Shown piece after piece: positions 2,849 to 14,571 of a stretch of 25,524 nucleotides of DNA; within the stretch, counting starts at the first letter, position 1; every line of letters begins with the position of its first letter. The notes beneath the pieces are model-generated. The model was not told the DNA's origin. It saw nothing but the letters and a program-made list of their open reading frames with translations, and did no database searches. Source of the stretch: a virus; the IMG/VR virus record IMGVR_UViG_3300017781_000113, positions 1 through 25,524 of that record. The stretch is one strand, 5' to 3'. A program made the translations under genes and the position numbers.

Positions 2849-2968
2849 ATGAATGATGATTTTGATATAATATTAATTTTGATCGGGGTCGGTATTGGTA
2901 TCGGCCTGGGTTTTATAATTAAAGTTGCAATGGACCAATACATCTTATTGAATATACTTCCTATTTAA
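2849..2968 (+). CDS. 39-residue single-helix membrane protein
   Basis: A 39-residue reading frame starting MNDDFDIILILIGVGIGIG. A glycine-spaced hydrophobic helix (about residues 7-25) is followed by a single lysine and a second short hydrophobic end. The alternating Gly-Ile/Val pattern (GVGIGIGLG) is typical of tightly packed transmembrane helices. AAAGA lies seven to eight bases before the ATG. The stop at 2966-2968 directly abuts the next ATG at 2969, so the downstream gene may depend on its translation. No function can be assigned. Confidence 0.55.
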   Translation: MNDDFDIILILIGVGIGIGLGFIIKVAMDQYILLNILPI

Positions 2969-3745
2969 ATGTTATCTAGAGAGTTTTTAATAGACAGGGG
3001 CTATTGTTGTGGGCATGGATGCTTAATGTGTCCATACGAACCTAAACATACTAAAGACAATAAAGTGTTAGCAGATGATGTGTGTCTATATTCCGGATTA
3101 CCATCACCTAACTCATACAGAAAAAAGGGCAATACTAATATGAGAGAAATAAAACGCATATACGTTACCGGAGTTAACAGATCCGGACACAGTACACTAT
3201 GGAAAAAGATTGAAGCTGATCCAGACATACCGTCTGCGATGATGGGAGACGAACAATTCATGCTTCCGTGGGATATAGAAAATCACAACCATACAGAGAT
3301 GCTTAGGAATAAATTTATAGACCGTGTTAAACAACTTGTCGAGTGGAGTCCAGACTGTAACACACATCTCGATATGGGACATTATTGGTTGCCACACATA
3401 CCTTGGCTAGTAGAGAATTTTGATGCACAGATACACATAATAAAAAGAAACAAAGACGATGTTATAGACGCATTTATGCAGAAGTTTGAAGATCATGTGG
3501 AGAACGATGTTGTACAGAAGTTTAGAACAACAGACATGTCAGCAACTAACTGGGAAATAGCATACCCAACATATGAAATAATCGAAGGTCTTGGACTACA
3601 AGAGAATTATAAGATACACACTAATATGTTTTATGATGACTATTATGCAATGGCTGATAAATTCTTAAGGGCATATCCAGACGAAGTACATATGCACACA
3701 TCAGAGCACTTGATAGAGGGAGATAATTACAAAAAATTATTTTAA
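2969..3745 (+). CDS. Two-part protein: CCGxGC..CPY (DUF5522-like) N-terminus plus sulfotransferase-like domain
   Basis: A 258-residue reading frame with two unlike parts. Residues 6-28 carry RGYCCGHGCLMCPY, with cysteines 13, 14, 18 and 21. This matches the small DUF5522 family (CCGxGCRHCPY), here without the usual Arg-His. From residue 58 a P-loop-like GVNRSGHST (68-76) and a later IIKRNKDDVIDAF (157-169) match the two PAPS-binding motifs of sulfotransferases, which move sulfate from PAPS to a hydroxyl or amino group. An internal ATG at 3140 (residue 58), preceded by AAAGGG, could start the sulfotransferase part alone. The first ATG follows the previous stop directly and has no Shine-Dalgarno sequence. 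It may therefore be a fusion or a gene with two starts. Substrate unknown. Confidence 0.6.
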   Translation: MLSREFLIDRGYCCGHGCLMCPYEPKHTKDNKVLADDVCLYSGLPSPNSYRKKGNTNMREIKRIYVTGVNRSGHSTLWKKIEADPDIPSAMMGDEQFMLPWDIENHNHTEMLRNKFIDRVKQLVEWSPDCNTHLDMGHYWLPHIPWLVENFDAQIHIIKRNKDDVIDAFMQKFEDHVENDVVQKFRTTDMSATNWEIAYPTYEIIEGLGLQENYKIHTNMFYDDYYAMADKFLRAYPDEVHMHTSEHLIEGDNYKKLF

Positions 3746-3758
3746 AAAAAGTGAAAAA

Positions 3759-3801
3759 AAGCCTTTACTTTCTCGCGAAAAAGGCTTAAGTTATAGCATA
3801 A
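3759..3801 (+). promoter_or_regulatory. Repeated promoter-like element, copy 3
   Basis: This is the variant with TTAAGTTATAGCATAA at the -10 end, the same as copy 5. Here the outer parts form an inverted repeat (AAGCCTTT at 3759-3766, AAAGGCTT at 3780-3787), preceded by A-runs. It lies 59 bases before the ATG at 3818 and is followed by GAGGTTAC. Confidence 0.65.
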
Positions 3802-3817
3802 TAAATAAGAGGTTACA

Positions 3818-4021
3818 ATGAAAAATACAAATTTTACAATCCAATTAACTGGAACTTTTAATGACGATGAAGATGAGATCTTATCTGACTGCTGTGCAGC
3901 TGATGTATATGAAGATCATATGATTTGCTCAGACTGTAATGATCACTGCGGGATTCAAGAAGAAGATCATTTAGTTGAAGAGATCGGTCACTCAATGGTT
4001 TTGGAGGCTTTACATGCGTAA
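3818..4021 (+). CDS. Small acidic cysteine-rich protein (possible zinc-binding)
   Basis: A 67-residue protein with 17 Asp/Glu and only one Lys, hence strongly acidic. The cysteines in DCCAADVYEDHMICSDC and NDHCG suggest a small zinc knuckle. Similar short CC...CxxC..HC proteins are seen in phage early regions, but no function is established. It is the first gene behind promoter copy 3, with the conserved GAGGTTAC leader. Its last 8 bases overlap the phosphatase gene, so the two are probably co-translated. As a very acidic promoter-proximal early protein it could act on host nucleic-acid-binding proteins; that is inference only. Confidence 0.7.
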   Translation: MKNTNFTIQLTGTFNDDEDEILSDCCAADVYEDHMICSDCNDHCGIQEEDHLVEEIGHSMVLEALHA

Positions 4022-4463
4022 TACAGTTATATTCGATTTAGATGGCACACTTGCCAATATAGAAAAGAGGCGTGATCTAGCACAAAGTGGTAGTAAGAAG
4101 ATGGACTGGGATGTATTCTTTGATCCTAAGAACATAGCATTAGATGAACCTAATTTGCCCGTTGTGTTATTGGCAAAGATGATGTTTGATAAGGGATTTA
4201 GAGTTGCAATATTCTCAGGACGTCTAAACGTTACTCAAGCAGCTACAGAAAGATGGTTGGAACAGAATGAAATTAATTGGGATATGTTAAGGATGAGACC
4301 GAAACATATGAAGTTTGTTGATGATGCAGAGCTTAAAAAAGAGTGGCTGGAAGAACTAGGAAAAGAATCAGTATTCTTAGTTGTAGACGATAGAACAAAA
4401 GTAGTTGATATGTGGAGAAGTGAAGGTTTAAATACTTTCCAGGTTGCAGATGGAAACTTCTAA
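4014..4463 (+). CDS. HAD-type polynucleotide 3'-phosphatase domain (T4 Pnkp-like)
   Basis: A 149-residue HAD phosphatase. Motif I is FDLDGTLA with nucleophile D8 and acid/base D10, motif II is FSGR (67-70), and the last motif is VVDDRTKVVDMW (123-134). The tail, ending FQVADGNF, closely resembles the end of the phosphatase domain of T4 polynucleotide kinase (DDRTQVVEMWR...QVASGDF). That domain removes 3'-phosphates from DNA or RNA ends so that they can be ligated. No kinase domain is attached, so this is a stand-alone phosphatase half. The ATG at 4014 is chosen because TTGGAGG sits just before it; an in-frame ATG at 3975 lies deep in the upstream gene. The nearby ligase fits a role in end repair. 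Confidence 0.8.
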   Translation: MRNTVIFDLDGTLANIEKRRDLAQSGSKKMDWDVFFDPKNIALDEPNLPVVLLAKMMFDKGFRVAIFSGRLNVTQAATERWLEQNEINWDMLRMRPKHMKFVDDAELKKEWLEELGKESVFLVVDDRTKVVDMWRSEGLNTFQVADGNF

Positions 4464-4487
4464 AAAAACTTTAAAAAAAGCAAAAAA

Positions 4488-4530
4488 AAGCCTTTACTTT
4501 GTCGCGAAAAAGGGCTAGATTAGTATATCA
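4488..4530 (+). promoter_or_regulatory. Repeated promoter-like element, copy 4
   Basis: AAGCCTTTACTTTGTCGCG with CTAGATTAGTATATCAA at the far end, preceded by two A-runs spaced about one helical turn apart (4471-4489). It lies 88 bases before the ATG at 4576, the longest leader of the six. GAGGTTAC is present at 4561-4568. Confidence 0.65.
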
Positions 4531-4575
4531 AATATGATAGATTTACAATCAATAAACAAAGAGGTTACAGATAAT

Positions 4576-4887
4576 ATGGGAAATTTACTAGATACAAGTT
4601 ATTTTCAGGAACTAGCAGAACAGGATGAGAACGAACCACAATATGTAGACGGCGTTGCGCTTTCTCCAGGTGTAGAGTTCATTCCTGATTTTATTTCAAC
4701 AGAAATTGATTTGGACAGAGATGTTCCAAACTACATTGCAGGCGACTTTGATGTTGATGTTGACGAAGACGGTCCATTTATCACTGCTAGTTTTGATGAT
4801 ACAGATGATGACTTTGATTTTGATGCATACTGTGAAGCTAATCCTGATTTTGATGCTGCTATTAACGGTCATTGGGAGTATGCATAA
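4576..4887 (+). CDS. Extremely acidic hypothetical protein (DNA-mimic-like composition)
   Basis: A 103-residue protein with 30 Asp/Glu, one Arg and no Lys. The acidic residues often alternate with hydrophobic ones (DFDVDVDEDG, DDTDDDFDFDAY), as in beta strands with one charged face. Such composition is known from DNA-mimic proteins of phages (for example Ocr-like anti-restriction proteins), but no homology to any of them is seen. The start is set by the conserved leader block GAGGTTAC at 4561-4568. An in-frame ATG at 4534 would place that block inside the coding region and lacks its own ribosome-binding site. The gene is first behind promoter copy 4 and overlaps the ligase start by one base (TAATG). 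Confidence 0.75.
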   Translation: MGNLLDTSYFQELAEQDENEPQYVDGVALSPGVEFIPDFISTEIDLDRDVPNYIAGDFDVDVDEDGPFITASFDDTDDDFDFDAYCEANPDFDAAINGHWEYA

Positions 4888-13797: not shown

Positions 13798-13939
13798 ACA
13801 GTTTTCAGACTACAAGCCGTACACATATCTTGAAGGTGTAGGTAAAGATGCAGTACCGGTGAAGTTCGTCGCAAAGAACGATGAAGATGCACAGTTATAC
13901 ATAAAAAAAGTAGGGGCGACATCTTGGAAAAAGTCATAG
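13781..13939 (+). CDS. Small basic hypothetical protein
   Basis: A 52-residue protein (MAKKSKQFSDYKPYTYLEG at the start) with AAGGAG nine bases before the ATG. The frame extends 15 codons further upstream, but only into the previous gene. It has a strand-turn-helix look (VPVKFVAKNDEDAQLYIKKV) and a basic end. It overlaps the deformylase gene by 16 bases, so the two are probably translated together. Confidence 0.6.
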   Translation: MAKKSKQFSDYKPYTYLEGVGKDAVPVKFVAKNDEDAQLYIKKVGATSWKKS

Positions 13940-14571
13940 ACTGTAATAAGCATGACAATCCTGTTATACGTAAGCAATTAAAGGAGGTCACCGTTGAAGA
14001 AGGAATGGCTATCGCAACGAAACTATTTCAGATACTTAACAAAAGAAAAGACGGTATTGGGTTGGCAGCTAATCAAGTGGGAATTGATGCACAAGTGGCC
14101 GTTGTCAATGTTCGTGAGCCTTTGGTATTCATCAATCCGAAGATTATATCAAAGGAAAATGAGATTAATTATTATGAAGGTTGTCTATCTTACCCTGGCA
14201 AAAGAGTACGAACCAGACGATACGAAACAGTAGAAGTTAGCTCAGATACTGTTGAAGGCACGATGATATTTAGTGGCGTAGACACAGGAGAATCTGGAAA
14301 AGGAAGCTGGGAAACAGATGATAAAAAGCAAGACAGAGCATTAAGGACATTAGAAGCAGTCTGCGTACAGCATGAGATTGATCATTTAAACGGAGTAATT
14401 TGTATGGATAGAAAAATAGATGCTACTGTTAAGAGAACAGAAAAGAAAATTGGTCGTAATAGATTGGTTACAATTAAAAAAGGTGATGCTGTAAGAGTGA
14501 TGAAATATAAACGAGCACAAACGTTTTTAAATGACGGATATGAAATTGATTGGGACAGGACAGCTATATGA
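13924..14571 (+). CDS. def: Peptide deformylase
   Basis: A 215-residue metallohydrolase that removes the formyl group from new proteins. Motif 1 is GIGLAANQ (44-51), motif 2 is EGCLS (85-89, metal ligand C87) and motif 3 is QHEIDH (149-154, H150 and H154 ligands, E151 catalytic). Compared with bacterial enzymes (about 165-170 residues) there is an insertion between motifs 2 and 3 (about 112-140) and a C-terminal basic extension. The start is TTG at 13924, with AGGGG just upstream. The segment before motif 1 (KHDNPVIRKQ) is needed for a complete fold, which supports this start over the ATG at codon 28. Phage deformylases are known from marine phages, where they are thought to help process photosystem or other fast-turnover proteins; here no such target is visible. 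Confidence 0.93.
   Translation: MEKVIDCNKHDNPVIRKQLKEVTVEEGMAIATKLFQILNKRKDGIGLAANQVGIDAQVAVVNVREPLVFINPKIISKENEINYYEGCLSYPGKRVRTRRYETVEVSSDTVEGTMIFSGVDTGESGKGSWETDDKKQDRALRTLEAVCVQHEIDHLNGVICMDRKIDATVKRTEKKIGRNRLVTIKKGDAVRVMKYKRAQTFLNDGYEIDWDRTAI

Follow-up and report, generated by a model that had tools for sequence, protein, structure and literature searches.

Shuffled (promiscuous) protein domains are common, one small domain being carried by many otherwise unrelated proteins. A second relevant arrangement is the nested gene, in which a start codon with a Shine-Dalgarno (SD) element lies inside a longer frame. In mycobacteriophage Ms6, lysA is reported to contain an internal in-frame start from which a second product of the same frame is made (PMC3111421), and for the Rpn nucleases, bacterial genes within genes are described that arise via an internal in-frame start (PMC10327210).

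Here we describe an open reading frame (ORF) that shares traits with both arrangements. It lies in an IMG/VR virus record of 25.5 kb from an uncultured marine phage, which encodes a gp25-like baseplate wedge; the whole stretch of 25,524 nucleotides was analysed and is referred to as the window. The frame (2969-3745, plus strand) is uninterrupted for 258 codons and begins with a small module of the family DUF5522 (PF17653), hereafter called the tag. As in Ms6 lysA and Rpn, a single frame encodes an additional product that begins at an internal start, here a predicted one: the ATG at 3140, which has an SD-like element within the longer frame. The partner is fixed in those systems, whereas here one leader module is found with many unrelated partners. 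The likeness to promiscuous domains is that one small domain occurs on many unrelated enzymes, having been combined with several non-homologous partners in independent events; the tag differs from them in that its junctions lie at the ribosome-binding site, the start of the joined gene is kept, and each genome carries a single copy. As far as we have checked, the combination of one small leader domain with many unrelated phage genes at a ribosome-binding site is new. It would offer a phage genome a route for placing one small domain onto many enzymes while keeping their own expression.

The tag and its relation to DUF5522

The first-pass annotation had described a 57-residue DUF5522-like part that continues in frame into another protein. 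The fusion as such was borne out, as the frame is open and a database search found the ORF unchanged in one other contig, L001 (IMGVR_UViG_3300017738_000101); over 5736 aligned bases, L001 and the window show 13 differences. L001 backs the assembly of the window but does not count as an independent lineage, and this combination of tag and partner was seen in one lineage only. That two nearly identical contigs are its only source might suggest an assembly error or a chance open frame. Such an origin is most improbable and already largely refuted, given the identical ORF in L001, the recurrence of other partners across many contigs, and the identical position of the tag in L214, a locus collinear with that of the window. 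Comparison of the whole-window DNA with isolated phages gave no match.

PF17653 matched the complete ORF with 25.3 bits (E = 1.7e-5), a marginal pass of the cut-off of 25, and residues 1-57 alone with 29.0 bits (E = 1.2e-6; same cut-off). The family assignment of the N-terminal part stands, but the match spans residues 4-26 only and not all 57. The tag has the CCGxGCxxCPY core of the family and carries the expected residue (R, C, C, G, G, C, C) at all seven columns that are invariant among 42 aligned DUF5522 members. Profile positions 1-24, the N-terminal half with YYxExGxxVFTE, are absent from the window tag, which begins MLSREF; judged by its sequence, it is a truncated DUF5522 and no full member. 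The module shared between loci comprises about 33 residues (MLSxEFLxxRGYCCGHGCLMCPYxPKHxKGNT). Generic phage DUF5522 proteins are nearly all free, 60-80 aa long, with PKHxKGNT at the C-terminus, and because these free members end in the same way, the tail of the tag is DUF5522's own C-terminus.

The pN/pS of the tag core was 0.12 with synonymous sites near saturation (median dS about 1), and the protein sequence of the tag is therefore under purifying selection. Its four invariant cysteines suggest that it is probably a small metal-binding domain, as presumed for the family. A literature search for DUF5522 found no paper mentioning it. An AlphaFold2 model of DUF5522 built from the 42 members reached a pLDDT of 89; a Foldseek search with this model against the PDB gave no match at E <= 0.001, and the fold gives no functional hint. 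The exact tag core was absent from 84,980 bacterial and archaeal species genomes, and the tag protein gave weak matches only against isolated phages (best E about 3).

Table 1. Features of the window in and around the fusion ORF.
Feature	Position	Strand	Remarks
39-aa putative single-TM protein	2849..2968	+	TAA stop abuts tag ATG; same gene at distance -120..-1 in L214
Whole fusion ORF, 258 aa (DUF5522 tag, linker and 201-aa partner)	2969..3745	+	Identical in L001
DUF5522 core, residues 1-26	2969..3046	+	PF17653 match at residues 4-26, profile positions 25-47 of 48
Tag tail/extension, HTKDNKVLADDVCLYSGLPSPNSY	3047..3121	+	Counterpart in free 57-58-aa DUF5522 protein of L193
AAAGGG, SD-like element for internal start	3124..3129	+	Within the K-K-G codons of KKGNTNM; -4.4 kcal/mol
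Internal ORF from ATG, 201-aa partner, sulfotransferase-like by motif only	3140..3745	+	No family match; sole relative in L001
IYVTGVNRSGHSTL, resembles sulfotransferase 5'-phosphosulfate loop	3158..3199	+	Read from sequence; no profile support
IHIIKRNKDDVIDAFMQKF, resembles 3'-phosphate-binding motif RNxxDxxxSxxxF, Ala for Ser	3431..3487	+	Read from sequence; no profile support
HAD/PNKP-type phosphatase	4014..4463	+	PF25109, E = 4e-26; directly downstream of tag ORF in L214 and L193 (partner absent)
Untagged peptide deformylase	13924..14571	+	Homologous deformylases carry the tag in eight loci

One tag in front of many partners

Additional tag members were gathered by pattern scans. The DUF5522 motif occurred once, and only once, in each of the 44 related virus records, among them some of 165, 120, 109 and 100 kb. 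The 34 other loci found with the window protein match its first 31-65 residues only, and their frames run on into unrelated proteins. The tag stands in front of at least seven unrelated partner families, nearly always in frame, and is free in a few records. The scenario raised in the first-pass annotation, that relatives always have two separate genes, does not apply, since the closest tags are mostly fused to various partners and few are free.

Among the partners are an MTA/SAH-nucleosidase-like phosphorylase (PNP_UDP_1, PF01048, E = 6e-15; NCBIfam nucleosidase models stayed below their cut-offs), a peptide deformylase that ends in a SEC-C motif (E = 2e-26 and 4e-10, respectively), a glycosyltransferase of family 2 (Glycos_transf_2, E = 5e-11) and, in L013, a putative sulfotransferase with a weak Sulfotransfer_2 match (E = 0.01, below the cut-off). 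Tagged deformylases occur in L002 (at 4001-4639), L005, L006, L019, L020, L032, L198 and L273. Other tag ORFs have a zinc-ribbon-like tail (L030, L034, L214), extend into a coil (L203) or a CWC-like tail (L215, by eye), or continue in yet another way (L011). Seven contigs (L189, L191, L195, L197, L200, L204, L205) share a near-unchanged fusion of PLSREFLLNRGYCCGNGCLNCPYKPK with an unknown domain of about 85 aa. The SEC-C metal-binding motif is also present on many untagged phage deformylases (e.g. L268-L281); others, including that of the window, are without it.

For the phosphorylase, corresponding loci with and without the tag were found. Behind a QueF-like gene, the phosphorylase comes immediately next in L249-L252, but the tag stands between the two in L004, L025 and L026. 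The same holds for an APRT-like gene, with the untagged phosphorylase next to it in L231, L234 and L257 and tag plus phosphorylase in L192 and L024 (both upstream genes were named by eye from sequence). The N-termini of untagged phosphorylases (L227, L265) equal the sequence after the junction in the tagged L025 and L004. On the phosphorylase tree at least eight changes of tag state are required, of which well-supported branches enforce three, with gain and loss indistinguishable.

At the position of the window fusion, L214 is collinear gene by gene, sharing also the phosphatase and a ligase on the downstream side, and has a tag ORF of 78 aa with no 201-aa partner. The longer version of the tag found in the window (..VLAEDICLYSGLPSAKSY..) is a free protein in L193. 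The DNA of the window matches that of L193 as far as the purine-rich SD element and no further, and the same is seen for L031 and L013. Two further features lie downstream of the fusion ORF. Directly 3' of it is an inverted repeat (window 3759-3787, AAGCCTTT...AAAGGCTT), possibly a terminator, and at 3818-4021 lies a small gene with DCCAADVYEDHMICSDCNDHC, possibly encoding a zinc-finger protein; a similar gene is located upstream, not downstream, of the tag in L193.

Starts, Shine-Dalgarno elements and reading frame

The start of the tag overlapped the upstream stop codon in 32 loci and abutted it in 4, i.e. in 36 of 41 distinct loci. Tag starts mostly had no SD, and none precedes position 2969 of the window; their median anti-SD energy was -1.5 kcal/mol, weaker than the -5.3 kcal/mol determined for the internal starts (n = 34). 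The internal starts were also stronger in this respect than other Met codons of the partners (-2.7 kcal/mol, p = 2e-7), and ordinary genes of the same contigs had a median of -5.4 kcal/mol (224 genes), so that these phages use SDs generally. For one gene the closest isolates were Flavobacterium and Microcystis phages, and a Bacteroidia host was considered. Bacteroidia ribosomes ignore SDs (PMC9976891); this host was not adopted because these phages do show SDs.

The overlapping starts could indicate that the tag is a leader only, i.e. a DUF5522 mini-gene that couples the downstream to the upstream gene and provides a ribosome-binding site, the fused protein being tolerated and not used. The mostly SD-less tag starts at upstream stops, the SD-like element ahead of each partner start, and the separate or out-of-frame downstream genes in L035, L193 and L031 would fit such a role. 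We nevertheless judge it improbable: the Cys motif is strongly conserved as protein despite near-saturated synonymous change, coupling would not be helped by in-frame read-through where an overlapping stop could stand, and untagged sites are already coupled without a tag.

Each of the seven partners kept its own start (ATG; TTG in several deformylases), preceded by AAGG, AGGG or AAGGA encoded by the K-G or K-D codons of the tag. Start and SD were retained in 34 of 34 junctions having a recognisable in-frame partner start. In the window, AAAGGG is 10 nt away from the ATG at 3140, which is rather far; the KGNTN-M arrangement is found in other fusions as well. With the pairing energy of this element (Table 1) and the same combination of start and SD-like element kept by seven unrelated partner families, the internal start is as plausible as the first-pass annotation had proposed.

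Part of the SD signal is evidently a by-product of the protein, as K-G yields AARGG anyway and KGN is conserved in free DUF5522. That AAAGGG is a mere Lys-Gly by-product is argued against, as the whole story, by the choice of AAG in K-D tags and by the comparison with free DUF5522. The Lys codon before G or D was AAG in 15 of 30 tags versus 14 of 69 free phage DUF5522 genes (p = 0.004; this test and the following one ignore shared ancestry). The former count consists of 9 of 24 K-G tags and 6 of 6 K-D tags with a start, K-N and non-Lys tags being excluded; it mixes K-D and K-G tags of differing sampling and becomes 15 of 32 with two K-D tags lacking an adjacent start. K-D tags followed by a start used AAG in all six cases, thereby keeping AAGGA, versus 3 of 17 for the K-D pairs that lie within partners (p = 0.0008, again irrespective of shared ancestry). 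In the K-D tags with no start directly behind (window, L193) the Lys codon is AAA.

Partners with a start next to KGN were in frame with the tag in seven of eight families (binomial p = 0.003 against 1/3), the exception being L035. If L031 is included, where the next start is more distant and not in frame, the ratio is seven of nine (p about 0.008).

A simpler reading of this frame retention is that DUF5522 acts at the protein level, as an adaptor or a regulatory domain, that only the tagged enzyme matters, and that internal start and SD are relics of joining. The frame kept in seven of eight families would be expected, as would the low pN/pS of the tag, and in L030, L034 and L214 (zinc-ribbon-like) and L215 (CWC-like) the tag runs into a domain without a start of its own; cellular DUF5522 is likewise fused to unrelated proteins. 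Relics, however, would not account for the start and SD kept in every one of the 34 junctions, TTG starts included, or for AAG in six of six K-D tags, and we hold this reading to be rather unlikely.

We favour, with somewhat more confidence than doubt, the interpretation that the ORF is one case of a swappable N-terminal translated leader domain, joined to its partners at ribosome-binding sites and giving a tagged and probably also an untagged partner. The shortened, one-copy DUF5522 gene occupies varying positions within densely arranged operons; its start is coupled to the upstream stop codon, and its 3' end (the KGN/KDN codons) doubles as a ribosome-binding site. New downstream genes have been joined at this 3' end, with their own start codon and the frame of the tag retained. 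The architecture, the exchange of partners, the retention of frame, SD and start, and the purifying selection on the tag are read directly from sequence, and the working proposed on this basis is as follows. Ribosomes coming from the upstream gene would then translate the tag straight into the partner and produce a tagged enzyme, while those entering at the internal SD would produce the untagged partner, so that both proteins may be made from one frame.

The tag might bring different enzymes to one binding partner or one place in the cell. A more specific version, which we consider unlikely and put forward tentatively, is that of an 'address tag': a metal-binding DUF5522 adaptor would deliver the joined enzyme to a single shared target, of the host or the phage, and spread by recombination between ribosome-binding sites, each capture yielding a tagged and an untagged enzyme. 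With the swappable leader, the widespread family DUF5522 becomes accessible to testing, as a property common to the tagged partners (place, binding partner or timing) should correspond to its function.

The window partner and cellular DUF5522

The 201-aa partner had been taken for a sulfotransferase-like domain, an identity that we could not confirm. Neither sulfotransferase profiles nor sequences matching it were found in Pfam, PHROGs, NCBIfam or PDB sequences, and the viral contigs contained no relatives besides the near-identical L001. Its resemblance to sulfotransferases (PF00685, PF03567, PF13469) consists of two short motifs, and it differs from them in having no profile or sequence match. 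The 5'-phosphosulfate loop and RNxxDxxxSxxxF, which we take to be PAPS-binding motifs (5'-PSB and 3'-PB), were matched by eye; the candidates are VTGVNRSGHSTL and KRNKDDVIDAFMQKF, respectively, the second with Ala instead of Ser. A single-sequence AlphaFold2 model of the 201-aa part had a pLDDT of 33.5 and was unusable, and when the profile of the window partner was compared with that of the L013 partner, which has the weak Sulfotransfer_2 match, no relation was seen at this depth. The suggested link between DUF5522 and sulfate transfer was not supported either. Because partners of the tag are interchangeable (deformylase, nucleosidase, glycosyltransferase and others), the partner in the window says nothing specific about DUF5522.

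The statement that DUF5522 is normally a free small protein holds for most members in phages and cells, but cellular fusions exist. In these the domain is C-terminal, in contrast to the phage tag, which is N-terminal to its partners. They comprise fusions to a TlyA-like S4+FtsJ methyltransferase (L381), to Peripla_BP_2 (L394; L363 was assigned by similarity to this fusion, outside the profile scan) and to DUF2064 (L350), as well as CWC-DUF5522 fusions (L406; L371 just below the cut-off; L355, L396 and L404 by eye).

In 9 of 80 cellular loci secA was located just upstream of DUF5522 (L336, L337, L339, L340, L342, L347, L362, L369, L376), and in 6 of 80 fmt was located just downstream (L359, L366, L386, L401, L410, L413); both genes were recognised by eye from sequence, and the loci, which come from some of the Bacteroidota, belong to related taxa and represent few independent cases. 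Together with the deformylase-SEC-C partner in phages and the cellular fusion to a TlyA-like rRNA methyltransferase, these neighbours point weakly to the ribosome or to nascent chains.
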